Origin: a virus
IMG/VR virus record: IMGVR_UViG_3300022837_000695
Span: 1-28,967 of that record
Length of the DNA: 28,967 nucleotides
Direction: 5' to 3' (one strand)
Part shown: piece after piece, positions 1 through 18,283 of the stretch
How positions within the stretch are numbered: the stretch's first letter is position 1
Layout of the letters: the number at the start of each line of letters is the position of its first letter
Notes under the pieces: model-generated
The model's input: the letters and a program-made list of their open reading frames with translations, nothing else
The model's database searches: none
Told to the model about the DNA's origin: nothing
Program-made: the position numbers and the translations under genes

Positions 1-666
1 ATGACAACCAATCTAAGCCCAGGAAGCAAATGGTGGAACAACTGGTTAGAATCTACAAGCAGTTTGCAACGTAGAAGTATAACAGCAAGCTACCATGCAG
101 AGTTTGCAAATGAACAGGAGTTTGGGGATAAATGTCTCCAATTAATGAAAAATAATGTATATATTACGATCAATCAAGTTATGGTTCCTGAAATGTTTGA
201 AGAGCTTTACGAACGTTTACAGCGATTTGCCGCCAGAGGCATTAATGTTACTGTCAAGCCACAGTCCGATCCTACAGCCTCTCGTGTGGTATCCGGATAT
301 ACGGATGTACAACTCGGCTTGTTGCAAACAGGATTCCCACAAAGAATCCCAGACGAATTTAAAAAAATAATACCGTTATTGCAAGTAGAATTGCAAGACA
401 AAGACGGTAACGTCTACTACGTAGATCAAGCAGAACGCTTTAATTCCTTCGGATTCAACAAGTTCAAAGGCTGGAGTTGTAATGCAGGATACCAAGGATG
501 CGTCATTAGAGAGAATGAAGTTAAGCGCAGCTACAGTTGCCATGACGAACCTCTAGGCACGTTAGACGGCGGCTTTGAGCTCTTTAAAGCGCCACGTAAG
601 TGCATTACTCCTACTTGCGTAAGTAGTGCAGATAGTAAACTACCAAAGGTAAAGTATGAAAGTTGA
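1..666 (+). CDS. Radical SAM protein, C-terminal part (cut by window start)
   Basis: The reading frame is open at the window edge, so the N-terminal part with the CxxxCxxC cluster motif is missing. The visible start (MTTNLS) matches the internal 'TTN' strand of radical SAM barrels rather than a true start. The C-terminal third carries a cysteine-rich auxiliary-cluster region: FKGWxCNAG with C160, then C167, C180, C201 and C206. The same FKGW-C-N-A-G layout and a Cys cluster followed by AD occur at the end of the radical SAM protein at 10894-11796, so the two are paralogues with a SPASM-like tail. It overlaps the next gene by 11 bases. The likely role is radical chemistry on an unknown substrate. 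The family call rests on the C-terminal half and the paralogue. Confidence 0.72.
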   Translation: MTTNLSPGSKWWNNWLESTSSLQRRSITASYHAEFANEQEFGDKCLQLMKNNVYITINQVMVPEMFEELYERLQRFAARGINVTVKPQSDPTASRVVSGYTDVQLGLLQTGFPQRIPDEFKKIIPLLQVELQDKDGNVYYVDQAERFNSFGFNKFKGWSCNAGYQGCVIRENEVKRSYSCHDEPLGTLDGGFELFKAPRKCITPTCVSSADSKLPKVKYES

Positions 667-1261
667 AATACAAGATGTGTTATTCTGGATGGATGCTATT
701 CGTAATAGTGAAGATCGCTATCGTACTCTAGAAAGCTTTTGGAAAGGACAAGTCAACAGTAAAGTTTGGCTCATTGAACAATTAACTAAAGTGTATAAAG
801 CGCATTATAGTAAATCTAATATAGTAATTTTTGGTGGCTGGAACGGAGTACTATCAAATCTGCTATTTAATAGTGATATGTCCATTAGGCACATTACAAG
901 TGTAGATATAGACCCTGTATGTGAAGAAACAGCGTGTACAGTAAACAAGCGTCAGGAAATCGAAGGACGGTTTACCGCAGTAACAGCAGATATGTGTGAT
1001 TATTCATCTCCTGCAAATATTATTATTAACACAAGCTGTGAACACGTTACGCAAGAACAATACGAACAATGGTTAAGTAATCAACCAGACGATGCAATAT
1101 TTGTAATACAGAGTAATAACTATTTTGACTTGCCCGAACATATACGTTGTGCAACAGACGCAGATGACTTTATGCGTATGAGTAAAGTTAAACCTCTATG
1201 GCGAGGTGAATTTGAAACTCCTATGTATACACGCTATATGATTATTGGAAAAAAGAAATGA
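656..1261 (+). CDS. Class I SAM-dependent methyltransferase-like protein
   Basis: 201 residues, small for a complete methyltransferase. A Rossmann-type SAM site is visible: the glycine-rich motif IFGGWNG at residues 58-64, the acidic strand end SVDIDP at 82-87 and an INTSCEHV motif at 124-131, which in this phage family replaces the usual motif IV. Members occur in marine T4-like phages; substrates are unknown. The start is supported by AAAGG 5 bases upstream. The start overlaps the preceding radical SAM gene by 11 bases, and the stop overlaps the next radical SAM gene by ATGA. It is therefore cotranscribed between two radical SAM enzymes, which suggests methylation of the same substrate. That link is inference. 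Confidence 0.75.
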   Translation: MKVEIQDVLFWMDAIRNSEDRYRTLESFWKGQVNSKVWLIEQLTKVYKAHYSKSNIVIFGGWNGVLSNLLFNSDMSIRHITSVDIDPVCEETACTVNKRQEIEGRFTAVTADMCDYSSPANIIINTSCEHVTQEQYEQWLSNQPDDAIFVIQSNNYFDLPEHIRCATDADDFMRMSKVKPLWRGEFETPMYTRYMIIGKKK

Positions 1262-2109
1262 AGCCTACTTTAAAATATTCAGAAATGTACATTACCAATG
1301 TATGTAATTACAGTTGTACACATTGTCAGAGCTTTAATAATTATGCTTTCAAAGGACACCAGCGGTGGGACGACTATAAAGATGAGTACGAACTGTTAAG
1401 CAAAAAACTTGATATTGGCATAATACAACTTATGGGCGGCGAGCCTACACTGAATCCTGATTTCAATAAATGGCTCAAAGGTATATCTAACTTATGGCCA
1501 ACTGCTAAATTACAAATATCTACTAATGGGTCAACACTTAATAAACTAACACAAGATGTTTATGATGTACTATCAAAGAATAATGGTACACTTTGGATAA
1601 CATGTCATGATATAAAACTTTATGACGGCTTTTTAGACTTTATTAACACATTCCTTGATGTAATCGTATCTGATACTGGAGAAGCTCCTGCTCGCAGAGT
1701 GTCTAGAATATTCATTGATAAAAACGGTGTTGAAGTAATTCTTGACTGGTCACAAACATTTAGAGCTAGTGCAATGGACTTAGTTAATAAGCAACTAACA
1801 CTGGGGTACGATAGCGATGTAGACGAAGCACACGATGTTTGTGGATTTAAAACTTGCCATCAACTTAATAAAGGCAAATTATACAAATGTCCATTAGTAA
1901 GTGTATTACCAGATTTTTTAAATCAATTTAATGTTGCAGTTGCAGATAAAGAGTTAGCACATGCATATCAACCAATGTCGCACGATGATGATGTTGAGAA
2001 ATTTGTAAACAATTTAGTTAATCCTATACCGCAATGCAAATTTTGTCCTAGTAACTATAACATAGGACACGACTTTATTGGTACTGATAAAAAAGTTAAA
2101 CAAACTTAA
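1258..2109 (+). CDS. Radical SAM protein with C-terminal Cys cluster
   Basis: 283 residues. The 4Fe-4S/SAM motif CNYSCTHC gives C16, C20 and C23, followed by the SAM-binding MGGEPT (GGEP at 60-63) and an ISTNG strand. The C-terminal region has C195, C200, C211, C260 and C263 (CKFC), consistent with one auxiliary Fe-S cluster of SPASM/twitch type. Such enzymes often modify peptides or small molecules; the substrate here is unknown. The start overlaps the methyltransferase stop (ATGA) behind a purine-rich stretch, so the two are translationally coupled. It converges with the oxygenase gene at 2096-2695, and the two coding ends overlap by 14 bases with no room for a separate terminator. Confidence 0.88.
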   Translation: MKPTLKYSEMYITNVCNYSCTHCQSFNNYAFKGHQRWDDYKDEYELLSKKLDIGIIQLMGGEPTLNPDFNKWLKGISNLWPTAKLQISTNGSTLNKLTQDVYDVLSKNNGTLWITCHDIKLYDGFLDFINTFLDVIVSDTGEAPARRVSRIFIDKNGVEVILDWSQTFRASAMDLVNKQLTLGYDSDVDEAHDVCGFKTCHQLNKGKLYKCPLVSVLPDFLNQFNVAVADKELAHAYQPMSHDDDVEKFVNNLVNPIPQCKFCPSNYNIGHDFIGTDKKVKQT

Positions 2110-2695
2110 ATTCAGTAGCAATACACATACGAGGCTCACTTGGCATATGTGCATCTACAGCATGTAAAATAGTATTGTCCATAATAACAATATCGCCTTC
2201 TTCGATAGCAAGTCTAAGTACGTCACTATCTTGATATTCGCTAGGCCAATCACCGTAATTGCTGTTGTGTATAAAAACTAAATTTGATCCACCCAAAGGA
2301 GCTTTAGGATAGAATAACATTATTAGAGTTTTTTCATCTTCTTCGGTATACCTATCCCAGTGATTTCTAGTTTCGCAACCTGCATAAGTTAAATTAATCC
2401 ACATATTATCAAATTGTAAATCAGTGGCATCTGAATACAAATTAGCATACTTTATTCCTGTTTGTTTAAGTGTATCTAATAGTATATTAAATTGTTTCGC
2501 TTTATCGCTAGTTAATGTAAAATTAAGATCTGTACTACAAACTCGTCCACCTCTTGCGTACGGGTGACTAACATCTTTATTTTCAGGAAGCATAAGATGC
2601 TTCATTACTTCGTCATGTAGTTCGTTCGAAAATAATGTGTTTATATCATTATTTTTAATTATAACAACTGGTAATCCAAATATTGATAATATCAT
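2096..2695 (-). CDS. Putative Fe(II)/2OG-dependent oxygenase
   Basis: 199 residues, with the 2-His-1-carboxylate pattern of cupin-fold Fe(II)/2OG oxygenases: H112-W-D114 (NHWDRY), a distal H178 (TILHAVD) and R189 near the C-terminus as the likely 2-oxoglutarate anchor. The stretch GDIVIMDNTILHAV resembles the segment before the distal His in phage oxygenases of the 2OG-FeII_Oxy type. It is the last gene of the minus-strand operon that starts at 5410 and follows speD after 13 bases. The likely activity is hydroxylation of an unknown substrate, possibly the product of the aminotransferase/amidinotransferase/SpeD genes upstream. The start has only a weak purine stretch (AAAGAAG). Confidence 0.72.
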   Translation of the reverse strand: MILSIFGLPVVIIKNNDINTLFSNELHDEVMKHLMLPENKDVSHPYARGGRVCSTDLNFTLTSDKAKQFNILLDTLKQTGIKYANLYSDATDLQFDNMWINLTYAGCETRNHWDRYTEEDEKTLIMLFYPKAPLGGSNLVFIHNSNYGDWPSEYQDSDVLRLAIEEGDIVIMDNTILHAVDAHMPSEPRMCIATEFKFV

Positions 2696-2708
2696 AATAC
2701 TTCTTTCT

Positions 2709-3080
2709 TTACTTCACTTCGTTTAATCCAAATTCTCTATCTAGGTATTTCCATTCAATTTTAACAGGATCCCATTGTTTTAACTCTGCAAAAATAATGT
2801 CTTTATTTAAAGCACCACATGTGTAAACATCTAGTTGCACAAGTGCTGGCTCAACAGCGTCCCATACATGTATTGCAATATGACTAGTTTCGATTACAAC
2901 TACGCCAGTTAATCCTTCGTTACCGGGCATGTCAACATATGCAGTAATAGGCCCTCGGCATACTTTCATACCAATTTTATCTACTAGTTCAGTAAGCCAA
3001 TTTTGTAACCAAACTTCATCTCTTGGAGGGTTGTTAACTTCGGTACGAATGATCAAGTGTTTGTGTTCTAGTAATTTCAT
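2709..3080 (-). CDS. speD: S-adenosylmethionine decarboxylase proenzyme (SpeD-like)
   Basis: 123 residues, the usual size of bacterial SpeD. The family self-cleaves before a serine to make a pyruvoyl cofactor and yields decarboxylated SAM, the aminopropyl donor for polyamines. The cleavage region reads ETSHIAIHVW. S66 would become the pyruvoyl group, H71 is the processing His (S+5 as in the family), and C88 in YTCG is the catalytic Cys. The residue before the serine is Thr instead of the usual Glu, and the usual Ser three residues later is Ala. SpeD genes are known in marine cyanophages. No spermidine synthase is visible here. The start overlaps the stop of a 45-residue ORF (ATGA) and lacks a strong ribosome site, so translation is probably coupled. 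Confidence 0.85.
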   Translation of the reverse strand: MKLLEHKHLIIRTEVNNPPRDEVWLQNWLTELVDKIGMKVCRGPITAYVDMPGNEGLTGVVVIETSHIAIHVWDAVEPALVQLDVYTCGALNKDIIFAELKQWDPVKIEWKYLDREFGLNEVK

Positions 3081-3214
3081 AAGTTATCTAATTGTTCTTT
3101 AATACAGTCTTCAGCATGGACTATGTACTTATTATCACTAGAAATGCCGGTGTCGTTGATTAACTTTATTCCACCGGCTCGCTTAATAACATCTTGTACA
3201 GTTAATTGTTCCAT
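3077..3214 (-). CDS. Small protein of 45 residues, function unknown
   Basis: A short frame fills the gap between the amidinotransferase stop (3216) and the speD start (3080). It begins MEQLTVQDVIKRAGG and ends KEQLDNL, and its TGA overlaps the speD ATG. The sequence is mixed-charge and probably helical, with one Cys and no membrane segment. The precise junctions on both sides and the otherwise unexplained 135-base gap argue that it is real. I do not recognise it. It could simply couple speD translation to the upstream gene, or be a small partner protein. Confidence 0.5.
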   Translation of the reverse strand: MEQLTVQDVIKRAGGIKLINDTGISSDNKYIVHAEDCIKEQLDNL

Positions 3215-3215
3215 A

Positions 3216-4298
3216 CTAAATAATTGACCTTTTAGAACCACGCCTTTTAGTATCTAATGTACTGCAATGAATGCCACCTTCCCAGAACAGCATATGACGT
3301 TGGTCACATACATGACAATCAATTCCGTGTGTTTTTAAGAATTTAAATAGATCTGGAACTTCTCGTCCAAAGATAAGGTTGTTTCTATCCACAACTAGTA
3401 CGTTAAAGTCAAAGCAACAGTCTTGGTTATATCCTGTCCAATTACCTAAATAATTTTCAACCCAGTCTAATTCGTATCTACCACCTTTAGCAATGAAGTT
3501 TCTTTTGTATTCTTTTGTCTTCGGTGAAGGAACAAATTGTTCAGCATCGATTAATTTTAAATGCCGCAATGCATGTGGTACCCATTCAATGCCAGCATGT
3601 AAAACTGTCTCGTCGTCGATCATAAGAAATCCGTGATCAATATGTCCGTAGTTTTCAGCATGCCCGTTAGTGTTTTCTATAAATTCAAAGTCTGTTAAAT
3701 TACGTTTAAGCCATTCGTAGCCTTTTTTACTACCAGGTCCATCGGCGTCTATAATAATTTTATCACCTACAGGATACATAGTTGCTGTGTGAAATAATAT
3801 TCTGTCTTTTAATTTACTATAATAAATGTTAGCTCCGGGCTCTTGCCCCGGCATGTACCATATGTCACTTGGCGTAACAGGAACTAATGGAGGAGCAGCT
3901 TGGCTAATCCAATTATAGCCCTCGTCAAACATTTCTGAAAATATATTATAAAAACTTAGTCCATCAAAATACCGATCAGTTAAGCTAGTGTATGTTTGGA
4001 TAATAGTTTTATCTAATACTTTGTATTGGTCTCTAGGAACGGTTGGTCCCATTGGAAACTTTACATCAAACCCTGACATTGCGATATGACCATCGTAATG
4101 ATATACGTCTGGTCTCTTAACTGTAACTCCGGCTGCTTTTAAGAAGTCTGCTAATTTGTCAAAGTCTTCTTTTGTTTCGTCTAGTATTTGATTAAACTGT
4201 GATAAGTTCTCATTTGGAAATAAATGATCTAAGTCACCACCTGCATACGAATCTGCAACAATAACTTCTTCTAGTGGGTCGTATTCTGTGTAAACCAT
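3216..4298 (-). CDS. Glycine/inosamine-type amidinotransferase
   Basis: 360 residues, matching the length of AGAT/StrB-type amidinotransferases of the guanidino-group-modifying superfamily. These move an amidino group from arginine to an amine acceptor through a Cys-amidino intermediate. The catalytic triad region is visible: GHIDHGF with H219 and D221, and the nucleophile C345 in GGIHCST followed by LDTKRRG. The start overlaps the end of the aminotransferase by 28 bases and is fixed by AGGAG 8 bases before the ATG. The pair suggests that the aminotransferase makes an amine that is then amidinated to a guanidino compound, as in streptidine-type pathways. The acceptor is not deducible. Confidence 0.87.
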   Translation of the reverse strand: MVYTEYDPLEEVIVADSYAGGDLDHLFPNENLSQFNQILDETKEDFDKLADFLKAAGVTVKRPDVYHYDGHIAMSGFDVKFPMGPTVPRDQYKVLDKTIIQTYTSLTDRYFDGLSFYNIFSEMFDEGYNWISQAAPPLVPVTPSDIWYMPGQEPGANIYYSKLKDRILFHTATMYPVGDKIIIDADGPGSKKGYEWLKRNLTDFEFIENTNGHAENYGHIDHGFLMIDDETVLHAGIEWVPHALRHLKLIDAEQFVPSPKTKEYKRNFIAKGGRYELDWVENYLGNWTGYNQDCCFDFNVLVVDRNNLIFGREVPDLFKFLKTHGIDCHVCDQRHMLFWEGGIHCSTLDTKRRGSKRSII

Positions 4299-5410
4299 AT
4301 TAGGTTCTCCTGTAGTGCTTCAAAGTATTCATCGCCCGCGTTCATCGGTATTACATAAAAGTGTTTGTCTTTTTTATTGTCGCTTCTAGCAGCTTTAAAT
4401 ATTAATCCATATCTACTAGTAACTACGTGTCCGTTATTTTCAAATACTGAAATAGCACGTTCTACTATTTCGTCATGCTTTTCTAATAAGTTATCACGTT
4501 CTAGAATATCTAAGTATTTTATAGCACTAGCTATTCCTGCTAAACTAAAGCTGTAAGTAAATCCGTGTTCCCAGAAAAAGCCTTCAGGCAGAACATTTTC
4601 AATTCTCTCATTATATAATACCATACTTAGGGGGAAAAATCCACCTGTTATTGCTTTGCCCATAGTTGAAATATCTGGCTTGATAGGAGTGTCATGCCAA
4701 CCTACATAGTTACCTGTCTTACCACCACCAGTAAAGATATCGTCAAATATAATTACAACATCGTGGTCTGTGCGTAGTTTGTCTAAGTGTGCCCACCATT
4801 CATCAGTAGGAGGTAGCAGCGCAGAACCGTATGAACATGGTTCGATCATTACAGCAGCCACATTATCCCAGTCTATATCTTGCTCTGCCCAGATTCTGGA
4901 TATGCGTCTTGTATTCTGATGCGGCTCTAGTGTATAAAATGGATTGTCCATAAAGTTTTCGTAGCCTACGCTGCATGTCATCATAGTACTACCGTGGTAG
5001 CTGTCGCTGAACCCTACAACTATGTTCTTATGTTTGTTGCCTTTTTGCCATTGGTATGCAGTAGCTAATTTAATAGCGCCTTCATTAGCATCGGACCCAC
5101 TAAGTGAATAAAAAGACTTCATTCCAGTTAGTGCATGAACTCTGTCGGCAAATTCAAAGCTGATATGATTTAATCTGTTAGCACCGCCCTTTGACATTTG
5201 GTTTTCGCCAAGCTCAGGACGTTCGCCTTTGAGTACATCTGCAACAAAGTCTACGATTTCGTCTTTTTGGTATCCTAATACAAATGCACCAAAGTGCATA
5301 AGAGGATCTATAACTTTTCTACCTTCTCTAATTTCACCATAATTCCACCTCGGTAACGGTAAAAGTATGTCTTGGACTTGGTGTTCAGGTATTAATCCTT
5401 TAAATTTCAT
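4271..5410 (-). CDS. Class III (PLP) aminotransferase
   Basis: 379 residues with class III landmarks in order: SLSGSDANEGAIKLA (residues 102-116, phosphate-binding region), SYHGS (137-141), VMIEP (187-191), IFDDIFTGGGKTG with D223, and STMGKAITGGFFP with the PLP lysine K252. The fold is that of glutamate-1-semialdehyde aminomutase, BioA and omega-aminotransferases, which interconvert keto or aldehyde groups and amines. It is shorter than the roughly 420-450 residues usual in the family, mostly in the C-terminal domain. It is the first gene of a minus-strand operon with a perfect late promoter (5436-5443) and AGGAAAC before the ATG. Coupling with the amidinotransferase implies guanidino-compound synthesis (inference). 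Confidence 0.88.
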   Translation of the reverse strand: MKFKGLIPEHQVQDILLPLPRWNYGEIREGRKVIDPLMHFGAFVLGYQKDEIVDFVADVLKGERPELGENQMSKGGANRLNHISFEFADRVHALTGMKSFYSLSGSDANEGAIKLATAYQWQKGNKHKNIVVGFSDSYHGSTMMTCSVGYENFMDNPFYTLEPHQNTRRISRIWAEQDIDWDNVAAVMIEPCSYGSALLPPTDEWWAHLDKLRTDHDVVIIFDDIFTGGGKTGNYVGWHDTPIKPDISTMGKAITGGFFPLSMVLYNERIENVLPEGFFWEHGFTYSFSLAGIASAIKYLDILERDNLLEKHDEIVERAISVFENNGHVVTSRYGLIFKAARSDNKKDKHFYVIPMNAGDEYFEALQENLIWFTQNTTH

Positions 5411-5443: not shown

Positions 5444-5457
5444 TGCGTAGTTAACTA
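5440..5457 (-). repeat. 18-bp promoter-linked repeat, copy 1
   Basis: The minus strand reads TAGTTAACTACGCATATA, identical over 18 bases to the plus strand at 26319-26336. It contains the palindrome TAGTTAACTA and runs into the late promoter here. A diverged version (TTAACTACACA) precedes the CATAAATA at 13084. It may be a binding site or a recombination trace. Confidence 0.5.
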
Positions 5458-6068
5458 TCTATGTAGTTCTTGAATATTTCACATCCTCTTTCCATTGTTA
5501 TTGGCTCGTTATTTTCTAATAACACAAAACAAAAGGTCCAGCGGTATTCGTCGCCAGGATTCCATGTAGAGTGAAGCTGTCCAACATTAATAAGACTAGG
5601 CTTGTTTATAACAGCTTCGTACACTAAGTCACAGTCGTCAAAATCTGCTATTATGCTATAGTCTATGTCAATGTCAGGATTAATACCAGCCTCATAAAAC
5701 TTCTTATTAGATCCACTGGCTGTGCCACCGTAAAATTTTTCATACTTTGTTTCGTCTCTAATTTTGTACCATCGTGTGGTGCTATCTTCCGGCCCCCATG
5801 TAAAGTTTAATTTACATACGTCTGCGGTCCCAGGCAACATTCCAGGATCGGCATGAAGTGGTACATCGCTGCCACCTGGACATGTATAAAACGCTTCTAA
5901 GATATTAGATAATTCTAGCCCAAGACTTTGAATCCACTCTCTAAAAGGTTGATAAACATCGCTTTCTTCCATTGCAACTGCAAAACGTTCGCCAGCATAA
6001 TTAAATTTTTCTGGTTTAGTAAACTCAAATGGAAGTGTTAAGTATCGGTGGTATATATTTTCAGTCAT
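5451..6068 (-). CDS. Putative Fe(II)/2OG-type oxygenase
   Basis: 205 residues from the ATG at 6068. That start overlaps the stop of the upstream gene by ATGA and has AAAGGAGA about 11 bases upstream; a longer open frame to 6170 has no such support. The metal-binding pattern is VPLHADPG (H72-A-D74), with a distal H166 in QLHSTWN and R176 in EYRWTF. The HADPG motif and the N-G-x-x-H-S ending are also seen in Asp/Asn beta-hydroxylase-like cupins. It is the last gene of the halogenase operon (8550 to 5451), so it may hydroxylate the same substrate. Its stop lies just before the late promoter of the next operon. Confidence 0.68.
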   Translation of the reverse strand: MTENIYHRYLTLPFEFTKPEKFNYAGERFAVAMEESDVYQPFREWIQSLGLELSNILEAFYTCPGGSDVPLHADPGMLPGTADVCKLNFTWGPEDSTTRWYKIRDETKYEKFYGGTASGSNKKFYEAGINPDIDIDYSIIADFDDCDLVYEAVINKPSLINVGQLHSTWNPGDEYRWTFCFVLLENNEPITMERGCEIFKNYIDS

Positions 6069-6499
6069 TGTTCTAAAATCTCCTTTAAATAATCTTTGTC
6101 CCAGAACGAGTAATACGATGTATTTTGTAGTGTATCTCTGCCCTTTTGCAGCCCAGCCCTGTCTTGGCATAATAATATATTATATTTTCCGTTACTAGTT
6201 TGTACTCCATTAATATTAGAATATCTATCTATACCGTCTGGCAAAAATACTAAAGAAGGATAAAAACTATTGTACTCTTTTGCAATAGTATCTAGTTGTT
6301 CGAATGTGTACTTGTTGTCTAGTATATAAACTATTAGTTCTAATGAACCTAGCACAGGATTAATATTGAGGTCTACTAAATGTTCTACTTTGTATCTAGC
6401 TTTTTTGGCAAACGGACAAACAGGTAATCCTCCTAATTCAGAACGTGTTTCTGAAATCTTATCAATCCATTCAGAAATACCTTGTTCGACGCTACTCAC
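6065..6499 (-). CDS. Unknown protein with a CPFAK motif, between halogenase and oxygenase
   Basis: 144 residues from a GTG at 6499 that overlaps the halogenase stop (GTGAGTAG) with GGAAAG upstream. An ATG at 6529, further inside the halogenase, is possible but has poorer spacing. The N-terminal part carries GLPVCPFAKKA, resembling the CPFAK motif of DUF1415-like proteins; the rest is mixed alpha/beta with no signal peptide or membrane segment. A link to DUF1415 is a guess from this motif only. Position between halogenase and oxygenase, with coupled starts on both sides, suggests a role in the same reaction sequence. Confidence 0.66.
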   Translation of the reverse strand: MSSVEQGISEWIDKISETRSELGGLPVCPFAKKARYKVEHLVDLNINPVLGSLELIVYILDNKYTFEQLDTIAKEYNSFYPSLVFLPDGIDRYSNINGVQTSNGKYNILLCQDRAGLQKGRDTLQNTSYYSFWDKDYLKEILEQ

Positions 6500-8550: not shown

Positions 8551-8556
8551 TAACAA

Positions 8557-11796: not shown

Positions 11797-13057
11797 ACGG
11801 AATAAATTCTGGATTAGCTGCAAGGAAGTCTTGCCCACGAGTTTTATCTAAGCGTTTGTTAAACTCTATACAGTCTTGCCAATGTGTTTCATACATGCAC
11901 TTTGCTTGTAAGAAGTTAATGTTATCTTGTATCTGTTGTAGTGTTACAGTTTCTAATAGTTTATGCTGTTTAACCATCGGGTATTCTAATACTTCTGTTT
12001 TCATTTGTTCTAAACGTGCTATTACTTTTGCTTTTAGTTCTGGCGGCAATACTTGCGCACTTAATGATTTAGGATAAGATACTCTGTGAGAATAAAACAC
12101 AATTCCTAGTTCGTTAATAAAGTAATCAATAACTTTATCAATCTGCATTATGTTGTTTGATTGTACAGTAAATGCACCAACTACTCTGCTTACATTAGGA
12201 AAACTCTTAAAAACTTTAATGTTTTCTTCTATTACGCTAAATTTACCATTGCCTCTAATGTACTCGTAAACGTCATGTAAGCCGTCTATGCTTACGTTTA
12301 CAGCTATGCTTTTAAACTTAGGCCAATAGTCATGGATCGTTCTGCCACCTTTAATGCCCAGCGTAGTACCGTTTGTAGCGTACTTTAGTTCAATGTTGTC
12401 ACCGTACTCTGCAAGCTTGTCTAGTATCTTGTAATGGTATGGATCCATTAGAGGCTCACCGCCTGCAAACTCTACACGCCTAAAGAATGGTAATAGTTTT
12501 TCAAACGATGACCACCAGTTGTCGCTATTATCGAATGGTCCTATATACTGCCCTGGCTTAGTTACAAGTGATTCTACAATAGGAATTAATATGTTATCTT
12601 CTTTTTTATAAAACTCTGTTACTTGATCCCAGTCCTTCCAGCTAGTACTGTCTAACGGATTACACATACGGCATTTTAAGTTGCATAAGTTGTTTAGTTT
12701 AATTTCCATAGTAGGAAGTTCAAACGGCATTGTATAATCTTCTTCTAATGCATCAAGTGCATCAGGGTACAAGTTGACTCTAGCTTCAGGTATTACCCCT
12801 GCTATATGACGCTGTCGTAAGCTCTGCACCCCCTGATCTTCTAGGTCAAAGCAAGGTTTGCACACTTCTGGACGTTCGTTATTAAGAACTTGCTTGCGTA
12901 CTTCGCGCATGGCATCACCATTCCACACTTCTTCTAGTGTTTCGTTTTGAATATAGCCAATAGGCGCACTACGGCAGCATATCTTAATGGCACCGTCTTC
13001 GCGGGTAGCTAGTCCTGTAAAAGGATGCATACAAAATGTACATGATTTATTATTCAT
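11789..13057 (-). CDS. Twitch-domain radical SAM protein
   Basis: 422 residues, a paralogue of the protein at 8645-10051. The N-terminal twitch-like domain has CTFCMHPF (C6, C9), ICC (C27/C28) and CKPCFDLE (C66, C69). The radical SAM core has CNLKCRMC (C125, C129, C132), FAGGEPL (GGEP 199-202) and YATNG. The C-terminal part is mostly helical with C388 and C397 the only late cysteines. It is the first gene of the operon ending with the SGNH hydrolase. A late-like GATAAGTA ends 5 bases before the ATG. GGATAAG could act as a weak ribosome binding site, but a leaderless transcript is also possible. Confidence 0.9.
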   Translation of the reverse strand: MNNKSCTFCMHPFTGLATREDGAIKICCRSAPIGYIQNETLEEVWNGDAMREVRKQVLNNERPEVCKPCFDLEDQGVQSLRQRHIAGVIPEARVNLYPDALDALEEDYTMPFELPTMEIKLNNLCNLKCRMCNPLDSTSWKDWDQVTEFYKKEDNILIPIVESLVTKPGQYIGPFDNSDNWWSSFEKLLPFFRRVEFAGGEPLMDPYHYKILDKLAEYGDNIELKYATNGTTLGIKGGRTIHDYWPKFKSIAVNVSIDGLHDVYEYIRGNGKFSVIEENIKVFKSFPNVSRVVGAFTVQSNNIMQIDKVIDYFINELGIVFYSHRVSYPKSLSAQVLPPELKAKVIARLEQMKTEVLEYPMVKQHKLLETVTLQQIQDNINFLQAKCMYETHWQDCIEFNKRLDKTRGQDFLAANPEFIPYV

Positions 13058-13062
13058 AAAAG

Positions 13063-13070: not shown

Positions 13071-13083
13071 CATTAACTACACA

Positions 13084-13091: not shown

Positions 13092-13096
13092 AATAT

Positions 13097-13774
13097 ATGA
13101 TAGCACAGACTAACTACCTTGTCAATGATAAAATTAAAAAAGAGTTAAAGTCTGCTGATATAGATGTTAACTTTAAGTTACCTTTAAATGAGCCTACTGG
13201 GGACTTTTTCTACGATGCGTGGACTATTAAAGAAGAATACAAAGGCACAGTATGGGACAAACTAGTATCTACATTACCTAGCAACATAGGCGAAGCACGA
13301 TTAATAAAACTAGAGCCTGGACAGGCATATCGCTCGCATGCAGATATGGACGATAGGTATCATTTTAATATCCAGGGCGAACGTAGCTTTGTATTATATA
13401 CTGACGCTAATTTAATATACCCGCAGGTAGAATCAAACTATTGGTTTGATATGAACGCCGGTGAACTGCATAGCGCAGTAAATACAGGACGAATTGATAG
13501 AATACAATTAGTAGTTAGGAAACTACTTAATCAAAATATATTAATAGATCCTGTGCATATAACAATGACATTAACTACATTCACGCCTGATTATAGATAT
13601 GTGTTTGATGAGTTTTACAGTCCCTGGCTTAATGCAGCAAATAAAAACGGAATAGTAAATAGCTTTGTGTATAACACTAACTACGTTTCGTTTAACATTG
13701 AAAGTAGTCATTTAGAAGAATTTAAATTAATCGAAACTTCGTATTTTAATTTAGCAGTAGGAACAGCAATATGA
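13097..13774 (+). CDS. Asp/Asn beta-hydroxylase-like oxygenase
   Basis: 225 residues. The jelly-roll iron site reads YRSHADMDDRYHFNIQG, with H81-A-D83, a distal H125 (GELHSAVN) and R135 in DRIQLVV. This HxD...HFNI...HSAxNxGxxDR layout is typical of the aspartyl/asparaginyl beta-hydroxylase-like family. Residues 140-225 form an extra C-terminal part that I do not recognise, containing a TLTTF strand and aromatic residues. There is no ribosome binding site before the ATG and no alternative start nearby. It is coupled by ATGA to the next oxygenase gene, so two oxygenases are made together. Confidence 0.75.
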   Translation: MIAQTNYLVNDKIKKELKSADIDVNFKLPLNEPTGDFFYDAWTIKEEYKGTVWDKLVSTLPSNIGEARLIKLEPGQAYRSHADMDDRYHFNIQGERSFVLYTDANLIYPQVESNYWFDMNAGELHSAVNTGRIDRIQLVVRKLLNQNILIDPVHITMTLTTFTPDYRYVFDEFYSPWLNAANKNGIVNSFVYNTNYVSFNIESSHLEEFKLIETSYFNLAVGTAI

Positions 13775-14340
13775 AACATTACTTAGGAAAACTACCGCCG
13801 CATTTATGTGACTCGTTAATTAACGAATGTCTACAACATACTGTGACGCCGTTTACTGGTAATAGAGATCTTGATCCTGGGCATGCATTTTACGAAGATC
13901 ATTTAAAACAAAAACAACTAGCTGACAAACACGGTTATTCAAAAGGCAACAGTGTAGAATTCTTTCATTACAGACCAGGCACTCACTACGACAAAGAAGT
14001 TAACAAAATAATTGGCAAGGCATCTAATACCACAGTATTACAAAGTTTTATTAGTGAAATACGTCCTGGAAAGTGCGCTCCTTGGCATTGGGATATTCCT
14101 AGTCTAACAGAGGATGTTAACTTGGTCGGGTATACTAAAGAACAGTTAATGAGATGTATTTGTTTTATAGATAAACCTAAACCAGGACAAGCATTTATGG
14201 TCGAAGACGAATGTTTCTATATGGAACCACAAGGTACTATATATCGCTATCCGAAACTAGAAAGCTGGCATGCAGGATTTAATGCCGGGCTAGGCACTAA
14301 GTTCCTTTTTACATTTACAGCCTTAGTAAGTTCCACTTAG
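13771..14340 (+). CDS. Putative Fe(II)/2OG-type oxygenase
   Basis: 189 residues. The iron-binding motif is PWHWDIPS (H106-W-D108) and the distal ligand is H167 in SWHAGFNAG. The position normally held by Arg is K177 (GTKFLFTF), which can also bind a carboxylate. The block between (RCICFIDKPKPGQAF) looks like the beta-strands before the distal His in phage oxygenases. The start is translationally coupled to the upstream oxygenase. The end overlaps the convergent gene at 14323 by 18 bases. The substrate is unknown. Confidence 0.7.
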   Translation: MKHYLGKLPPHLCDSLINECLQHTVTPFTGNRDLDPGHAFYEDHLKQKQLADKHGYSKGNSVEFFHYRPGTHYDKEVNKIIGKASNTTVLQSFISEIRPGKCAPWHWDIPSLTEDVNLVGYTKEQLMRCICFIDKPKPGQAFMVEDECFYMEPQGTIYRYPKLESWHAGFNAGLGTKFLFTFTALVSST

Positions 14341-15132
14341 TTTTAATTTTTCTCTAAATGCATCAGTGAACGTTCCGTCAATACGCATACCGTATGTAGG
14401 ACTCATAACACGATTCCCTCCGTGCCAATCTTGATCATTCCAAAAAGCTGCACGAGTGTTAATGCCGTGTTTCATCTTTTTGTCAGGATCCCAAATATAA
14501 AATTGATTGCGAGTGTCTGTACGGATATGTATAAACTCGTTGTTATGATCTTCGTATCTGTCTTTGGGCCATATGCCGTTTTGTGCGCCTAAGTCTCTGT
14601 GTTCAAATGGCAATCCATCTGCTTCGCAGTGAAAAAACATTACTCGACCAAATGATTTGAATATTTCATTATCCTTAAAGCCTTGTAGCCAACGCATAGT
14701 ATTAGGAAAGAACTCTGATTCTTCAGTTTCTTTTTTCTCCTCAGGACGATCATCCCAGTCGCCTTCTTCGTGTAAGAAGTAATAGATATAAGGATCGTAC
14801 GCTTCCATTGCCATTTTAAGATAACGTGTAATTACATTACGCTGCTTATAGTCTTTAAAGTCTGTAGGCCATATTTTCATACCCTCTACTTTAATTGGAT
14901 CATCGTCGGGCAATGCTTGGAACTCTTCCATTGCAGCATATATAGGTTTCCAATTAAGCGTGTAACTCATGTCTTTAAATTCAAAGCCTGGTTTCATCCA
15001 AGTGCCTTCTTTTGCAAACCATCTTGCTTCAGCAAAGCCTCGCATAATTTCTGGCTGCAATTGTTCAAACGTTTCCATGTCTACGTGCTGTTCCATATCT
15101 AAGTATGGTCGTCCGTTAATACCTTTAATCAT
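14323..15132 (-). CDS. Putative Fe(II)/2OG-type oxygenase (larger type)
   Basis: 269 residues. The iron site is LPFEHRDLG with H178 and D180, followed by distal H237 (DWHGGNRV) and R250 as candidate 2-oxoglutarate ligand. A charged, very acidic insertion (DWDDRPEEKKETEESE, 125-140) separates the N-terminal half from the jelly-roll. The N-terminal half (RGFAEARW, WKPIYAAMEEF) is not familiar to me. It follows the zinc-ribbon radical SAM gene after one base, with AAGAGAAG before the ATG, and is the last gene of the operon 18283 to 14323. Confidence 0.66.
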   Translation of the reverse strand: MIKGINGRPYLDMEQHVDMETFEQLQPEIMRGFAEARWFAKEGTWMKPGFEFKDMSYTLNWKPIYAAMEEFQALPDDDPIKVEGMKIWPTDFKDYKQRNVITRYLKMAMEAYDPYIYYFLHEEGDWDDRPEEKKETEESEFFPNTMRWLQGFKDNEIFKSFGRVMFFHCEADGLPFEHRDLGAQNGIWPKDRYEDHNNEFIHIRTDTRNQFYIWDPDKKMKHGINTRAAFWNDQDWHGGNRVMSPTYGMRIDGTFTDAFREKLKLSGTY

Positions 15133-15133
15133 G

Positions 15134-16342
15134 CTACTTCTCTTTTTTATATACTGTTAATAAATCTAATGGTTCTTTAGTTGGATTTCTAGTAAACATA
15201 TATCGTTCGATTGGACTGTCAGGAAGGGTATTGCCTTTATTTTTCCAAGCGTCTCTTCTAATAATTTGATGTAAGAAATTTGTTATACCACCTGGCACAA
15301 AATCGCACCATGGTCCAGAGCGAAGTTCTTCCATATCAATATCTGTTTCGTCACACCATTGAATAATTCTTATGTCTTTGCCGTCTATTTTAGCCATAAC
15401 ATGATATATATTATTGTCAGCTTCTACAATTCTTTCAAATAATTTATTATTATCCTTACACCATTGTTCGATTGCTTTGTATACGTCACTAACAAATATA
15501 CGCACTTGTCCAGGATTACGACCAATATCGCTTCCGTAACGAATTCTAAAGTTTTTACTTCGCCATTCGTTGCTACATATTTCGTTCATTATAAAGTCAA
15601 CTTCTCCTAGAGTCATCATAGTATAACTGATATAACTTATATGTAATCCTTCTGCATGTGCATTATGAATGGCTTCAAGTTGTTTTCTTCTAATTACTTT
15701 GTGATCATTATAACTTGGATGATTCAATCCTATGTTAACACTACTTAATCCGCTTGCAATTGCCGACTTTACATAGTTTCTATCTGAAAAACGAATACCG
15801 TTAGTCATTACAGACACAGTAATACTAGGATCTAAAGCATTAATTTGTTCAACAAGACTATTAAAGTCCTTACGTAAAGTTGGCTCTGCTCCACTAAGGA
15901 TGACGCGATGTATAGCATCTTCGCCAAGGGGCCACTTTTTAATTTGTGAAATAATTTTTTCAGCTGATTGATCTGTAAGTGCATTATCAGGTTCGTGATA
16001 ACAATGCGGACAGGCTAAATTGCACCTGTCAGTTACTTCTATTAGCACTCCGCCGTTAAAGTTGTATTGAGGGTTATCTTGGGTATAGTATATATTACGA
16101 TAAAATTCGTAATCACTTTCAATCATGTGGTGACTTGTACCGTGTGTTTCACAATGTTTGGCTATAAATACTTGATTATTTTTGTGATAGCGTAATGCCG
16201 GAACATGATAATGACAGTGCTGGCATAGACTAACAGTGGGCAACAGTTCATTACCATCGACGTCTTCTATTGCAGAACGTATAGTATCAATTGCGTTCTG
16301 CGTAAATTGATTTATACCAACTATTTTAATTTGATCTAACAA
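15134..16342 (-). CDS. Radical SAM protein with N-terminal Zn-ribbon-like motif (Tes/MJ0619-like)
   Basis: 402 residues. The N-terminus holds CQHCHYHVPALRYHKNNQ and KHCETHG (C40, C43, C64, H67), the C-x2-C...K-x-C-x2-HG module that precedes the radical SAM core in tetraether-lipid synthase (Tes) and MJ0619-like proteins. The core follows with CNLACPHC (C107, C111, C114), SGAEPT (151-154) and SVMTNG. Known relatives make C-C bonds or methylate inert carbons, but substrate transfer to this phage protein is unsafe. The start is a TTG at 16342 overlapping the upstream stop (TTGTTAG) with AAAGGAAC 8 bases before it; no better start exists. It sits among three oxygenases and a kinase-like protein. 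Confidence 0.84.
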   Translation of the reverse strand: MLDQIKIVGINQFTQNAIDTIRSAIEDVDGNELLPTVSLCQHCHYHVPALRYHKNNQVFIAKHCETHGTSHHMIESDYEFYRNIYYTQDNPQYNFNGGVLIEVTDRCNLACPHCYHEPDNALTDQSAEKIISQIKKWPLGEDAIHRVILSGAEPTLRKDFNSLVEQINALDPSITVSVMTNGIRFSDRNYVKSAIASGLSSVNIGLNHPSYNDHKVIRRKQLEAIHNAHAEGLHISYISYTMMTLGEVDFIMNEICSNEWRSKNFRIRYGSDIGRNPGQVRIFVSDVYKAIEQWCKDNNKLFERIVEADNNIYHVMAKIDGKDIRIIQWCDETDIDMEELRSGPWCDFVPGGITNFLHQIIRRDAWKNKGNTLPDSPIERYMFTRNPTKEPLDLLTVYKKEK

Positions 16343-17043
16343 TTATTAGTTCCTTTATTGTATATTTGTTTTGCTGCATCTATAAAGTCGTCAGTATAGT
16401 TTTTTCTAAAACTTTCAAAACATAAATGTTGTAATGTATTTAACGATTCTGGCTCATCCCAACTTATGCCCATAGTCTCTATTTGTGTACGCATTATATC
16501 TTGTCTTGTACTGTATATATGACTAGCATGATCTGAAATCTTAATTGAACCTTCACTTTCGTGATAGCAGAAAAAATGATTAAAACTTTTTAATTTTCCG
16601 TCTACTATAAAGTAACTGCTAGGATGTAGGCTATATTTGTATAATCCTACATCTTTGTATGCTTGTAATATCTCAAGCATTTGTTCTCTCCAGTCTGGCA
16701 GCACACTATCGTAATTTGCTACAGTGCAGTTAGCACGATTCCAAAAGTCAATCCCGTCAACACTAAGGTATAATTTTTGTTCTTGTGCATCGACTTTAAA
16801 TATGTTAGGAACATGCTGCGGATATTCTTCGGCCATTAGTTGTGAATACTTAACTTCTCGATTCCACTTTTCTGTCATTAATGCAGGATCAAGTACTTCG
16901 TTTTGTCCTTTGTGATAAACAGCATCATTGTAAAACCATTGACAAAACAACTGTCTATCTTCTCTCATAAGACTTGTGTAAATTAAATTGTTACGACATT
17001 TCCCTTCGCCTGGTATGTCATTCCAGTAGTAATCGTAGTTCAT
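16336..17043 (-). CDS. Kinase-like-fold protein, function unknown
   Basis: 235 residues. EKWNREVKYSQLM (58-70) looks like a kinase alpha-C helix with E63. LYLSVDGIDFW (91-101) resembles the hinge, and LYKYSLHPSSYFIVDGKLKSFN (135-155) resembles the catalytic loop of aminoglycoside-phosphotransferase/protein-kinase folds. The catalytic Asp of HxD is absent (H140 is followed by Pro-Ser-Ser) and the usual DFG is not clear, so it may be inactive as a kinase or have another role. Neighbours are coupled on both sides: ATGA with the upstream oxygenase and TTGTTAG with the radical SAM gene. The fold is a low-confidence guess; that it is a real gene is much surer. Confidence 0.72.
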   Translation of the reverse strand: MNYDYYWNDIPGEGKCRNNLIYTSLMREDRQLFCQWFYNDAVYHKGQNEVLDPALMTEKWNREVKYSQLMAEEYPQHVPNIFKVDAQEQKLYLSVDGIDFWNRANCTVANYDSVLPDWREQMLEILQAYKDVGLYKYSLHPSSYFIVDGKLKSFNHFFCYHESEGSIKISDHASHIYSTRQDIMRTQIETMGISWDEPESLNTLQHLCFESFRKNYTDDFIDAAKQIYNKGTNNC

Positions 17044-17684
17044 ATGTATAATGCCTTGTTGTTGTACTTTTCTAAGCTACGGTTAATTAATGCGTTATGT
17101 TTATCATTATCTATAATACCAGCAGTAGTCAATATTATTTTTGGTCGATGTGTTTCTACTGCTCCATGCCATACATTGTTATTATTAAATGCAAAGCACG
17201 GACTCTGTATATTTGGATAGTGTTTTTCTCCGTTTTCTTCTTTACTAAAATAAAACGTATTATGTTTAGGGTCTGTTAAATAAATTGTATAACGTCTAGG
17301 TTCTGCCGGATTATGCGGATCGTGTGCATCTTGATGATTTGGAATGGGTCCTAATTGATAAAGCATACCACTTACTGTTAATTGCTTAAATGGCAATTGT
17401 TTGATACAGTTAGCAAGACTAGGAAATGTTTCCTCAAATCCAGGATGAAAAAATAAGCCTTCGTTTACTCCGTCAGTTCTACGATTGTCCCACATTTCTT
17501 TATCAAACCTACGCCAGTCTTTAGGTTCCTTACAAGTTGAAGTCATTGCCCATGCATGCCGGTTTGAAGTTAACTCCCAATAGTCGTTATCTAACAATTT
17601 ATGATTTTCGAACCATTGCAACAGCAATTCTTCGTTAGGCCATTCTACATCAATATCTATAGGCAAGTATGCTAGATGTTTCAT
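17040..17684 (-). CDS. Putative Fe(II)/2OG-type oxygenase
   Basis: 214 residues. The iron site is IPNHQDAHDP (H117-Q-D119), and the distal region is NNVWHGAVETHRPKIIL with H173 and R180 or K182 as carboxylate ligand. PRRYTIYLTDP between them is the strand that in this family follows HxD. Both ends are coupled by ATGA overlaps (upstream oxygenase at 17681, downstream kinase-like gene), with AGAAGGAAC before the ATG. It is the second of two adjacent oxygenases in this operon. The substrate is unknown. Confidence 0.7.
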   Translation of the reverse strand: MKHLAYLPIDIDVEWPNEELLLQWFENHKLLDNDYWELTSNRHAWAMTSTCKEPKDWRRFDKEMWDNRRTDGVNEGLFFHPGFEETFPSLANCIKQLPFKQLTVSGMLYQLGPIPNHQDAHDPHNPAEPRRYTIYLTDPKHNTFYFSKEENGEKHYPNIQSPCFAFNNNNVWHGAVETHRPKIILTTAGIIDNDKHNALINRSLEKYNNKALYI

Positions 17685-18283
17685 ATAGTTCCTTCTAAAG
17701 ATATTAAGTCGTTGAGTTTATCTTGTTTTAATCTAAAAATAATAGTAACTCTGTCTTCATTACTAGAATTAAATGTGTGATGCGGATTTGTAGTGTTTAA
17801 CAAATAAGCACTTCCATCTGCAATTAGTTCGTATTCTTTGTCAAATGTTATTGCAGGACCGCTAGTGTGAATAGGCAACCACACAGTGTATTCGTCTTCT
17901 GCATCAGTATGCTCGGTAACCTTGCCACCTGGCGGCTGCACACTTACTGCCCAGCGATACCCAAACGGTATCTTATCTTGCAAACGACTAATTATACCAA
18001 ATGCTAATTCTGTATTACGATAATCTACTGTTTCGTGTTTGCTAATATTCCAAGGAGGACACGGTATTGTAATATCTTTTAAATTACTTTGTATAGCCCA
18101 GCCGTGTGTTAATAAGTTAGCAGGATCTTCGTAAGCAGCATCTCGCCATTGTTTGACAATATCATTGCCACACTTCTCCCAACTCCAATCTAAATGTTGG
18201 TAGTCTGTGTTTAATTTGTCGTAGTATTGGCGTAGTTCGTTAATACCTAATTTAAAATTTAGTTTTGTTACAGTATCCAACAT
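17681..18283 (-). CDS. Asp/Asn beta-hydroxylase-like oxygenase
   Basis: 200 residues. The jelly-roll core shows PPGGKVTEHTDAEDEYTVWL with H125-T-D127, then GSAYLLNTTNPHHTFNSSNEDR with distal H168/H169 and R178, and TIIFR after it. The pattern HTD...LNTTxPHxxxNxxxxDR is characteristic of Asp/Asn beta-hydroxylase-like proteins. It is the first gene of the operon 18283 to 14323, with a CATAAATA late promoter 17 bases upstream and GAGGAG before the ATG. This is the clearest late expression signal of the accessory region after 5436. Confidence 0.75.
   Translation of the reverse strand: MLDTVTKLNFKLGINELRQYYDKLNTDYQHLDWSWEKCGNDIVKQWRDAAYEDPANLLTHGWAIQSNLKDITIPCPPWNISKHETVDYRNTELAFGIISRLQDKIPFGYRWAVSVQPPGGKVTEHTDAEDEYTVWLPIHTSGPAITFDKEYELIADGSAYLLNTTNPHHTFNSSNEDRVTIIFRLKQDKLNDLISLEGTI

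Follow-up and report, generated by a model that had tools for sequence, protein, structure and literature searches.

Radical SAM and Fe(II)/2OG oxygenase genes are concentrated in an exchangeable island coupled to a tail protein in an uncultured phage lineage

The analysis of the IMG/VR record IMGVR_UViG_3300022837_000695 (positions 1-28,967, referred to as the window) revealed that the region 1-18283 belongs to an island which phages of an uncultured lineage exchange. This island is rich in radical SAM and 2OG enzymes with intact metal sites, and it is exchanged together with the C-terminal part of a tail protein. The original prediction, made from the sequence of this region, was of a dense cluster of oxidative and radical enzymes in a phage; the cluster is real, as confirmed by Pfam, PHROG, motifs, folds and relatives, and the phage origin was borne out. 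The source lineage apparently consists of large, uncultured bacterial viruses. The term T4-like gained no support, with the MoxR backbone gene being nearest to jumbo phages (51.7% at best), and the interpretation as a whole is partly supported. The features of the window are the following:

1..666, plus strand: rSAM0, C-terminal part (95% identical to a 334-aa radical SAM protein of G003)
656..1261, plus: putative class I methyltransferase-like protein, the usual partner of rSAM0
1258..2109, plus: rSAM1 (Pfam Radical_SAM 6.9e-12)
2096..2695, minus: 2OG-Fe(II) oxygenase (phrog_81, PHROG 2OG oxygenase, 9.8e-12; HxD at 112)
2709..3080, minus: S-adenosylmethionine decarboxylase family (Pfam AdoMet_dc 1.6e-13; below the NCBIfam equivalog cut-off)
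3216..4298, minus: amidinotransferase (HsvA 5wpi, 3.6e-23)
4271..5410, minus: class III aminotransferase (Pfam 6.8e-43)
5451..6065, minus: putative 2OG oxygenase (HxD...H conserved in 4 aligned sequences)
6065..6535, minus: DUF6875-like protein (phrog_10325 2.2e-20; Pfam DUF6875 0.013, below cut-off)
6492..8051, minus: flavin-dependent tryptophan-type halogenase (Pfam Trp_halogenase 4.9e-93; 6frl 1.2e-55; VirX1 5e-49)
8044..8556, minus: 2OG oxygenase, AspH-like (H99, D101, R112 and H151 invariant in 25 aligned)
8645..10051, plus: rSAM2, twitch-domain radical SAM (NF033640 376.7 bits, cut-off 170)
10061..10903, minus: SGNH/GDSL-like protein, optional (family-model grouping)
10894..11838, minus: rSAM3 (Pfam 7.1e-9)
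11789..13057, minus: rSAM4, twitch-domain radical SAM (NF033640 327 bits, cut-off 170)
13097..13774, plus: 2OG oxygenase of the core block (H81, D83 and H125 invariant in 10)
13771..14340, plus: 2OG oxygenase, same family as 8044 (iterative search; conserved iron site)
14323..15132, minus: 2OG oxygenase, core marker (predicted 2OG fold, Z 9.8)
15134..16342, minus: rSAM5 with HMPTM-type zinc ribbon (Pfam 9.2e-19 and 1.1e-10)
16336..17043, minus: predicted pseudokinase with a kinase fold, accompanying 14323 (matches the kinase TTK by profile, E 5e-4)
17040..17684, minus: probable 2OG oxygenase (predicted fold, Z 9.0; model pLDDT 59)
17681..18283, minus: 2OG oxygenase, Asp/Asn beta-hydroxylase type (Pfam Asp_Arg_Hydrox 2e-6; PDB beta-hydroxylase 2.7e-10)
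18265..18942, plus: island gene without assigned family (93-100% identical in G001, G002, G014 and G016)
18939..19709, plus: fatty-acid desaturase family (Pfam 1.5e-20)
19709..20314, plus: sulfotransferase-like (Pfam Sulfotransfer_3 1.1e-4, below curated cut-off)
20318..21128, minus: Mtd_N tail protein, C-terminal part, exchanged with the island (residues 137-405 100% identical to G001)
21129..21251, minus: tail-gene transition zone between near-identical blocks (21075-21251 93.8% identical to G019)
21252..21535, minus: N-terminal 94 residues of the tail protein, which stay with the backbone (Mtd_N 2.7e-11)
23061..25540, minus: two backbone markers, a VWA-domain protein and a MoxR-type ATPase (Pfam DUF2201, AAA; phrog_1314, phrog_1297)

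Concerning the radical SAM enzymes, six had been proposed. Five of them (1258, 8645, 10894, 11789 and 15134) are complete, score above the Pfam Radical_SAM cut-off and carry CxxxCxxC. The sixth, at 1-666, also belongs to the group and is cut by the window edge; it shows no CxxxCxxC because the window begins inside the gene, and its full-length relative in G003 has the radical SAM domain. A seventh, a QueE-like fragment, was found at 28550-28966, beyond the region 1-18283. An identity as Viperin/pVip defence proteins was rejected, since the window scores reach at most 47 bits against a family cut-off of 180, and PADLOC matches at most 51 bits.

Eight oxygenases with an HxD...H iron site had also been proposed, and HxD is present in all of them. 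HxD and the distal histidine are invariant among aligned relatives for six of the eight families, while HxD is found in 8 of 9 aligned members of the 17040 family and in 95% of 22 for 17681. Folds and profiles support a relationship to known 2OG members for seven proteins, weakly for 17040. The 8044 and 13771 proteins form one family by iterative search, which matches the 17681 family by profile (probability 86%), and 13097 has a profile link of probability 75%. The 14323 model (pLDDT 74) resembles PHD2 (Z 9.8, rmsd 3.4, 164 aligned). The 17040 model resembles the 2OG hydroxylase 7v4m (Z 9.0, rmsd 3.2, 147 aligned) and gave no Foldseek match at E <= 0.001, being the weakest of the supported cases. 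The eighth, 5451 (listed as 5451-6170, with a start probably near 6065), is a putative member by its motif, which is conserved in its few relatives; profile tests gave it no clear support.

The predicted flavin halogenase was also recovered. It keeps in the alignment the Lys and Glu that we take to be catalytic, and it is optional, being present in one of nine complete islands and in 5 of 42 core loci. The 656..1261 family, present in 9/9 complete islands, had no Pfam or PHROG match nor a significant PDB profile hit, and may be methyltransferase-like. The DUF6875-like gene adjoins the amidinotransferase in some relatives. The 10061 gene is missing at the corresponding place in G002 and G003, and a protein grouped with it by the family model scores Pfam Lipase_GDSL at its cut-off.

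The enzymes are organized around a conserved core. In 42 non-redundant viral loci, chosen by the presence of 14323 (a protein with 315 viral relatives), the predicted pseudokinase occurs in 41, rSAM4 in 29, rSAM3 in 28, the 2OG oxygenase 13097 in 26, and rSAM2 and rSAM5 in 24 each. Moreover, all 20 long records with 14323 carry 8-15 radical SAM matches. Independent shuffling among relatives, which the original prediction had named as evidence against itself, was not seen for the core, whose co-occurrence is conserved; the island edges do vary. Neither 14323 nor the pseudokinase had relatives in 84,980 bacterial and archaeal genomes or 50,697 phage records. In the weak kinase match of 16336 (E 5e-4), the aligned catalytic positions read Ser138, Ser143 and Asn155, invariant in 27 aligned sequences. 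These presumably correspond to the HRD Asp, the catalytic Asn and the DFG Asp; as all three are replaced, an active protein kinase was rejected.

The concentration of these enzymes in the island goes beyond chance. Nine relatives have complete islands; their 367 island genes include 112 radical SAM and 39 2OG genes, and the 433 genes outside none, with QueE left out of the radical SAM count and the 2OG family models seeded from this window. The radical SAM filter misses some members (Pfam finds 117 in the same nine records, with outside QueE-type genes among the candidates), and Pfam detects radical SAM in 5 of 148 island proteins previously unlabelled. Exceptions beyond the nine are G029, with three radical SAM genes away from the island, G028, whose backbone genes include one radical SAM and one 2OG gene, and G025, with one 2OG gene and an amidinotransferase in the backbone.

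The island exceeds 20 kb in the window, and in relatives its outer markers lie 31-48 kb apart. Its exchange is directly visible: positions 1-21128 are 99.98% identical to G001 and 21252-28967 are 99.97% identical to G018, while G017/G018 and G019 share the window's backbone at 99-100% identity and carry different islands. The QueE-like gene travels with the backbone, about 7 kb past the junction. The window shows one side of the island; in G015 and G019 the other flank holds tail-fibre and baseplate genes.

The junction between island and backbone falls within the Mtd_N tail-protein gene. The N-terminal 94 residues are 100% identical to G017/G018 and 41% to G001, whereas residues 137-405 are 59-63% identical to G014 (incomplete) and G016, whose islands are related to this one, and 13-28% to 15 records with other islands. 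This coupling was quantified in 15 records (105 pairs), with at most 15 genes past the tail gene counted as island. The N-terminus follows the backbone (rho 0.54, p 0.001) but not the island (0.00), while the C-terminus follows the island (rho 0.40, p 0.0005) and not the backbone (-0.07); backbone and island are uncorrelated (0.04). With G001 left out, the correlation of C-terminus and island was still 0.38; it was 0.29 (p 0.012) when the five genes of the island closest to the tail gene were dropped. The coupling may reflect mere physical linkage, since the conserved N-terminus is the nearest shared sequence. Among 20 long records, six have no Mtd_N match, and in 13 of the 14 that do it lies within 15 kb of 14323, a modest association (Fisher p 0.014, with the nearest gene taken and rows not dereplicated). 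The island is not adjacent to the baseplate wedge in any of the five long records with a wedge match; in two jumbo records it is far from it (113 kb vs 244-270 kb in G053, 237 kb vs 13-23 kb in G051).

Regarding these data, we tentatively favour a type-switching cassette, in which island and tail C-terminus are exchanged together and the enzymes would share a single target, the tail tip being the likeliest. Recombination inside the Mtd_N gene would swap the island of radical SAM, 2OG and other tailoring enzymes between phages, so that it moves with the C-terminal part of the tail protein, presumably the receptor-binding part. The enzymes may then act on the tip itself by hydroxylation and radical C-H chemistry, with halogenation, sulfation and guanidination as options. 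With the pseudokinase as a possible adaptor, tip and modifiers would thereby stay matched. Virion modification is possible. It is more doubtful that the swappable, virus-specific set installs combinatorial modifications on a receptor-binding tip, both being inherited as one serotype-like cassette; host recognition would then extend past the twenty amino acids. In proteusin-type maturation clusters, several radical SAM enzymes, an AspH-like 2OG hydroxylase and a methyltransferase act on one ribosomal polypeptide. Unlike in those clusters, no precursor-peptide gene was seen in the island of the window, where 328 nt of 1-20317 are noncoding (the search covered genes neither overlapping others nor distant). 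The AdoMet decarboxylase, aminotransferase and amidinotransferase resemble small-molecule enzymes, which counts against the tail-tip reading. Also against the cassette are the records with the island away from the baseplate wedge or with no Mtd_N match, the radical SAM or 2OG genes outside the island in G025, G028 and G029, and the lack of the window's junction in other contigs.

The coupling of tail C-terminus and island also fits a somewhat less probable function, likewise matched to the tip, in which the island modifies the surface of the infected host (for example a lipid or an outer-membrane protein) and blocks superinfection or re-adsorption. Serotype-conversion-like roles have been proposed for pelagimyophage island genes in the accessible text of PMC7029224, the desaturase and sulfotransferase-like genes adjoin the tail gene, and Vibrio phage K566 has an annotation for the lipid A acylation protein PagP among its radical SAM genes. 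Against it, and in favour of the tail-tip reading, no record exceeds the cut-off for glycosyltransferase family 2 (0/39, with matches below it in 5/39) or family 1 (0/25). Moreover, among the listed 25 of 79 Pfam families those for sugar nucleotides match 2-3 of the 148 unlabelled island proteins each.

A diffusible small molecule, namely a guanidino compound built on a polyamine or on arginine and then oxidised and halogenated, appears unlikely. The AdoMet decarboxylase, amidinotransferase and class III aminotransferase genes stand in a row, the best PDB match of the amidinotransferase is HsvA (the inosamine-phosphate amidinotransferase 1bwd, SxtG and AGAT also match), and Campylobacter modules carry an amidinotransferase too. 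However, the amidinotransferase family is present in 2/9 complete islands and the other two in 0/9, so this module is variable, and no scaffold-building enzyme was seen in the window. A hot-spot of unrelated auxiliary genes (e.g. for Fe-S or redox supply) with no joint product has even less in its favour: distant islands differ widely in content and Fe-S-related roles have been suggested for radical SAM-rich marine genomes (PMC5332604, in its accessible part), but the core is conserved with similar gene order around 14323, and the exchange spans 21 kb at 99.98% identity.

It is improbable that the junction is a chimera produced when two co-resident phages were assembled. No other contig showed exactly this junction (a search that may omit records very near the window's own), but about 123 bp lie between the near-identical stretches and resemble G019 with 45 codons fewer (G019 having 45 more residues there), and the exchange between G018 and G019 is visible with the window left aside. 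A DNA-hypermodification pathway, to which the QueE-like gene past the junction could point, can practically be dismissed, as that gene belongs with the backbone, no nucleotide-modifying family appeared among 30 proteins scanned with Pfam, and coupling to a tail protein would not be expected.

Interchangeable radical SAM modules and host-recognition islands are already known, and calling the region undescribed was too strong in view of the accessible text of PMC2853527, PMC5332604 and PMC7029224. According to the first and to the CP220 annotation, Campylobacter phages CP220 and CPt10 have an interchangeable module of five radical SAM genes and an amidinotransferase, believed to be swapped as a block between related phages, with 11-12 radical SAM genes per genome and a tail-fibre gene within ~20 kb. 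The window likewise combines several radical SAM genes with an amidinotransferase, apparently homologous to that of CP220 (24.9% over 98%), in a cluster replaced as a whole between closely related phages. The radical SAM proteins are weakly similar; the 2OG families match nothing in a 48-kb CP220 stretch, whose cluster holds two sugar-transferase-like genes, and the islands here are larger. The pelagimyophage host recognition cluster, as outlined in the available portion of PMC7029224, is a hypervariable island of the structural region, between VrlC and the neck gene gp14, with tail fibres and radical SAM cassettes. In the relatives of the window the island is likewise hypervariable and adjoins tail-fibre genes. 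Glycosyltransferases are conspicuous in that cluster (GT8 most represented), whereas families 2 and 1 do not exceed the cut-off here, and its authors infer gradual divergence over complete replacement, whereas whole replacement is seen here. In HTVC008M, 2OG genes stand in tandem, flanked by baseplate and neck genes, and cyanophages also carry 2OG and halogenase genes. This set, with VirX1, shares the tryptophan-type halogenase (~30% identity to isolates among the matches listed), but the radical SAM model finds none in a 48-kb HTVC008M stretch. The T4-like marine genome TARA_ERS488813_N000010 has 12 radical SAM genes in 183 kb, discussed as Fe-S metabolism, and the paper on it (PMC5332604) does not contain "2OG", nor does its accessible text speak of exchange. 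No published description was found of such a scale, of the 2OG partnership or of the tail-tip coupling.

Radical SAM genes of marine viruses have so far been interpreted as auxiliary metabolism (PMC5332604 and PMC7150976, in the text available). An island of radical SAM and 2OG genes exchanged with the tip of a tail protein points to a role in recognising the host or in the chemistry of its surface, and we infer a function in modifying the tail tip or the host surface. Its swap between near-identical viruses suggests a changeable chemical "signature" for recognising or altering hosts, and the core, with two families absent from the cellular genomes searched, may therefore also hold new chemistry. 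Should the enzymes act on the tail tip, adsorption would have a layer of post-translational chemistry invisible to sequence-based host prediction.

The window is the entire IMG/VR virus record of 28967 bases, which is probably a fragment of a larger genome. Its left 20 kb are gene-dense, with 328 noncoding nucleotides within 1-20317, and encode the enzymes named in the original prediction, which had claimed a dense cluster of radical SAM proteins, Fe(II)/2OG (2OG) oxygenases and a halogenase. Five radical SAM proteins (rSAM1 to rSAM5, at 1258, 8645, 10894, 11789 and 15134; genes are given by their start) are over the Pfam cut-off, ORF 1-666 (rSAM0) is the C-terminal part of a sixth, cut by the window edge, and the halogenase is clearly tryptophan-type. 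Concerning the eight 2OG oxygenases claimed, HxD is present in all of them and seven are backed by profiles or predicted folds; this backing did not extend to 5451, for which the conserved HxD motif is the sole support and which profile comparison did not link to other 2OG families. The least supported of the seven is 17040 (model pLDDT 59, no Foldseek match at E <= 0.001). Profile comparison gave no link between the 8044 family and either 14323 (probability 2%) or 17040 (26%), and therefore the 2OG identity of these two rests on predicted folds. Against the PDB, the 17040 profile gave chance matches only, the 8044 family profile gave weak matches only, and no significant match was obtained for the methyltransferase-like 656 family. 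The remaining features are the following.

Left side: AdoMet decarboxylase
Left side: class III aminotransferase
Left side: amidinotransferase, closest to HsvA
Left side: desaturase
Left side: sulfotransferase-like protein
Left side: kinase-fold protein
Left side: methyltransferase-like protein
Right 8 kb: phage backbone, with Mtd_N tail protein, VWA, MoxR, 5'-3' exonuclease and QueE fragment
28550-28966, minus strand: C-terminal fragment of a QueE-like radical SAM protein (phrog_2076, 4.8e-24), part of the backbone and not of the island

For the MoxR gene, viral contigs yielded at least 591 relatives, but the closest isolate match is only 51.7% (Pseudomonas jumbo phages), so the phage lineage appears, from sequence, to be uncultured. 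A nucleotide search of window positions 1-20000 against the phage collection gave no match. The left-side genes form an island that is exchanged together with the C-terminal part of the tail gene. Two related viral records, G015 and G019, show what lies on its far side: a giant structural protein, then also tail-fibre genes and a baseplate wedge.

The island keeps its place among relatives while its content changes. It was complete, from the left marker gene to the tail side, in nine of the ten long records tried; G029 was left out of the count because its left marker was not found. The nine complete islands span 31-48 kb, with 7-21 radical SAM genes each. Together they hold 112 radical SAM and 39 2OG genes among 367 genes, as counted with a radical SAM filter that misses QueE and some others (the Pfam count in the same records is 117), 2OG models seeded from the window and intervals that take in a few tail genes. 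Outside the islands of these records, neither was found among 433 genes (QueE not counted). A Pfam scan of 148 of the 178 unlabelled island proteins (8 straddling tiles and 22 mostly short proteins omitted) added radical SAM in 5, TauD in 3 and PhyH in 2. G029 is an exception, with three radical SAM genes located away from the island. A radical SAM match was present in 36 of the 38 records searched, some of which may be fragments; G021 and G038 have one match each, and G026 and G027 none. The methyltransferase-like gene occurs in all nine complete islands, the amidinotransferase in two and the halogenase in one.

Some particular features were also observed in these records. The richest island of this analysis is that of G024 (10-54 kb), with 21 radical SAM genes in 44 kb. 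In G025 and G028, single radical SAM, 2OG or amidinotransferase genes are inserted among backbone genes near MoxR. A conserved protein of 73-74 aa adjoins the methyltransferase-like gene in G019 (46078-46299), G020, G022, G033 and G034, being identical in G020 and G033, and a different conserved protein of 84 aa adjoins rSAM1 in G003-G005 and G013-G016. Compared with the window halogenase (6492-8051), that of G007, whose island is nearly identical in other respects, shows 76% identity, and G016 carries a different one (31%) at another site; therefore, halogenase genes seem to be exchanged one at a time. The large viral record G009 (265680 bp) has five tryptophan-halogenase matches.

A conserved core surrounds 14323, whose family query confirmed 315 relatives in viral contigs. 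The best 80 of these 315, collapsed at 90% identity, gave 42 loci, where counts within 10 kb are lower bounds, since many of the loci stop short, and do not bear on the more distant rSAM0, 656, AdoMet decarboxylase and amidinotransferase. The kinase-fold gene was found in 41 of these 42 loci, followed by rSAM4 (29), rSAM3 (28), 2OG 13097 (26), rSAM2 and rSAM5 (24 each), 2OG 8044 (15), 2OG 13771 (10) and the halogenase (5). Before collapsing, 75 of the 80 loci held both the kinase-fold gene and 14323; the two were direct neighbours in 39 of these and separated by a single gene in 20. The VWA backbone marker lies inside the 10-kb flanks in 4 of the 42 only, these flanks being too short to call the others different lineages. 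Among 80 MoxR loci, both genes occur in the same four and in no other. No relative of either family was confirmed among 50,697 phage records or among 84,980 genomes of bacteria and archaea; the latter were pre-filtered with two short peptide patterns per family, so that misses are possible. On these data, radical SAM and 2OG genes are not shuffled independently in the core across the 42 loci, contrary to the outcome that would have refuted the original prediction; the island edges vary.

Comparison of near-identical records revealed exchange of the island as a unit. Window positions 1-21128 are 99.98% identical to G001, whose backbone matches at 72.5% over 22158-28297; the backbone end (28472-28906) is again 92% identical, which suggests, at the sequence level, a second recombination event. 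The window backbone, on the other hand, is 99.97% identical to G018 (21252-28967), 99.96% to G017 (21252 to 27996) and 99.1% to G019, records whose islands differ from that of the window. G018 and G019 themselves have 9.9 kb of backbone in common at 99%, and their islands share at the DNA level two short stretches only (68-73%). The switch occurs around codon 95 of the Mtd_N gene. Compared with G017/G018, the encoded protein shows 100% identity over residues 1-94 and 23% over residues 137-405; compared with G001, the corresponding values are 41% and 100%. The window's own junction may be a local assembly error in this record, because the search for a second contig carrying it found none, but the exchange pattern is independent of this junction. 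Across all 105 pairs of 15 records (G002, G012, G014, G033 and G038 dropped), the tail N-terminus correlates with the backbone (rho 0.54, p 0.001) and the C-terminus with the island (rho 0.40, p 0.0005), with no correlation between backbone and island (0.04, p 0.35). The correlation of C-terminus and island persisted, at 0.38, when G001 was omitted, and at 0.29 (p 0.012) when the five island genes closest to the tail gene were omitted; without both G001 and G016, a weak correlation of the N-terminus with the island appeared (0.21, p 0.02).

Among 20 long records with 14323, an Mtd_N match was absent from 6 and lay within 15 kb of 14323 in 13 of the other 14 (Fisher p 0.014, with the nearest gene used and rows not dereplicated). 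A baseplate wedge match was present in 5 of the 20; it never adjoined radical SAM genes, and in two jumbo records it lay at a great distance from them. Wedge positions and the records lacking Mtd_N count against a universal link between the island and the tail module.

The kinase-fold protein has a weak match to TTK (E 5e-4), and the Asp, Asn and Asp that TTK carries at the HRD, catalytic Asn and DFG positions are replaced in it by Ser, Ser and Asn. Because of these replacements it is predicted to be catalytically inactive, and it may act as an adaptor. rSAM2 and rSAM4 fall within the twitch-domain subfamily NF033640, and no radical SAM protein of the window is over the cut-off of any equivalog among those listed. 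In proteusin maturation all enzymes work on one polypeptide, and the window resembles it in its many radical SAM proteins, AspH-type hydroxylases and methyltransferase-like protein, and in showing no scaffold builder. By this analogy the enzymes would share one polypeptide target, for which the tail tip travelling with them is the natural candidate. The main rival is that they act on the host surface and not on the tail tip. Glycan synthesis received no support from searches of related records for glycosyltransferase families 2 and 1, but other glycosyltransferases may be present, since the scan of 148 island proteins listed 25 of the 79 Pfam families tallied. A RiPP cluster was rejected for the window since the island has hardly any room for a precursor gene. 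Viperin-type defence (scores far under the cut-off) and DNA hypermodification (no markers in the Pfam scan of window proteins) were also discarded.

Related modules have been described in other phages. Campylobacter phages CP220 and CPt10 are reported to differ by a cluster, each with five radical SAM genes and an amidinotransferase, called an interchangeable module (PMC2853527), and the pelagimyophage host recognition cluster is described as holding glycosyltransferases and radical SAM cassettes (PMC7029224). Moreover, 12 radical SAM genes are mentioned for a T4-like marine genome (PMC5332604), and halogenase and 2OG genes are given as common in cyanophages, in 20 sequences and in 76 of 153, respectively (PMC10452541). 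Neither radical SAM-2OG pairing at such density nor island co-exchange with the tail tip was found among openly licensed papers, judged partly from the matches listed. A smaller cluster, with four annotated radical SAM genes and, in their midst, a lipid A acylation gene (PagP), lies at 161-179 kb of the record of the named jumbo phage Vibrio phage K566 (OZ196521), and this phage could be a possible laboratory model.
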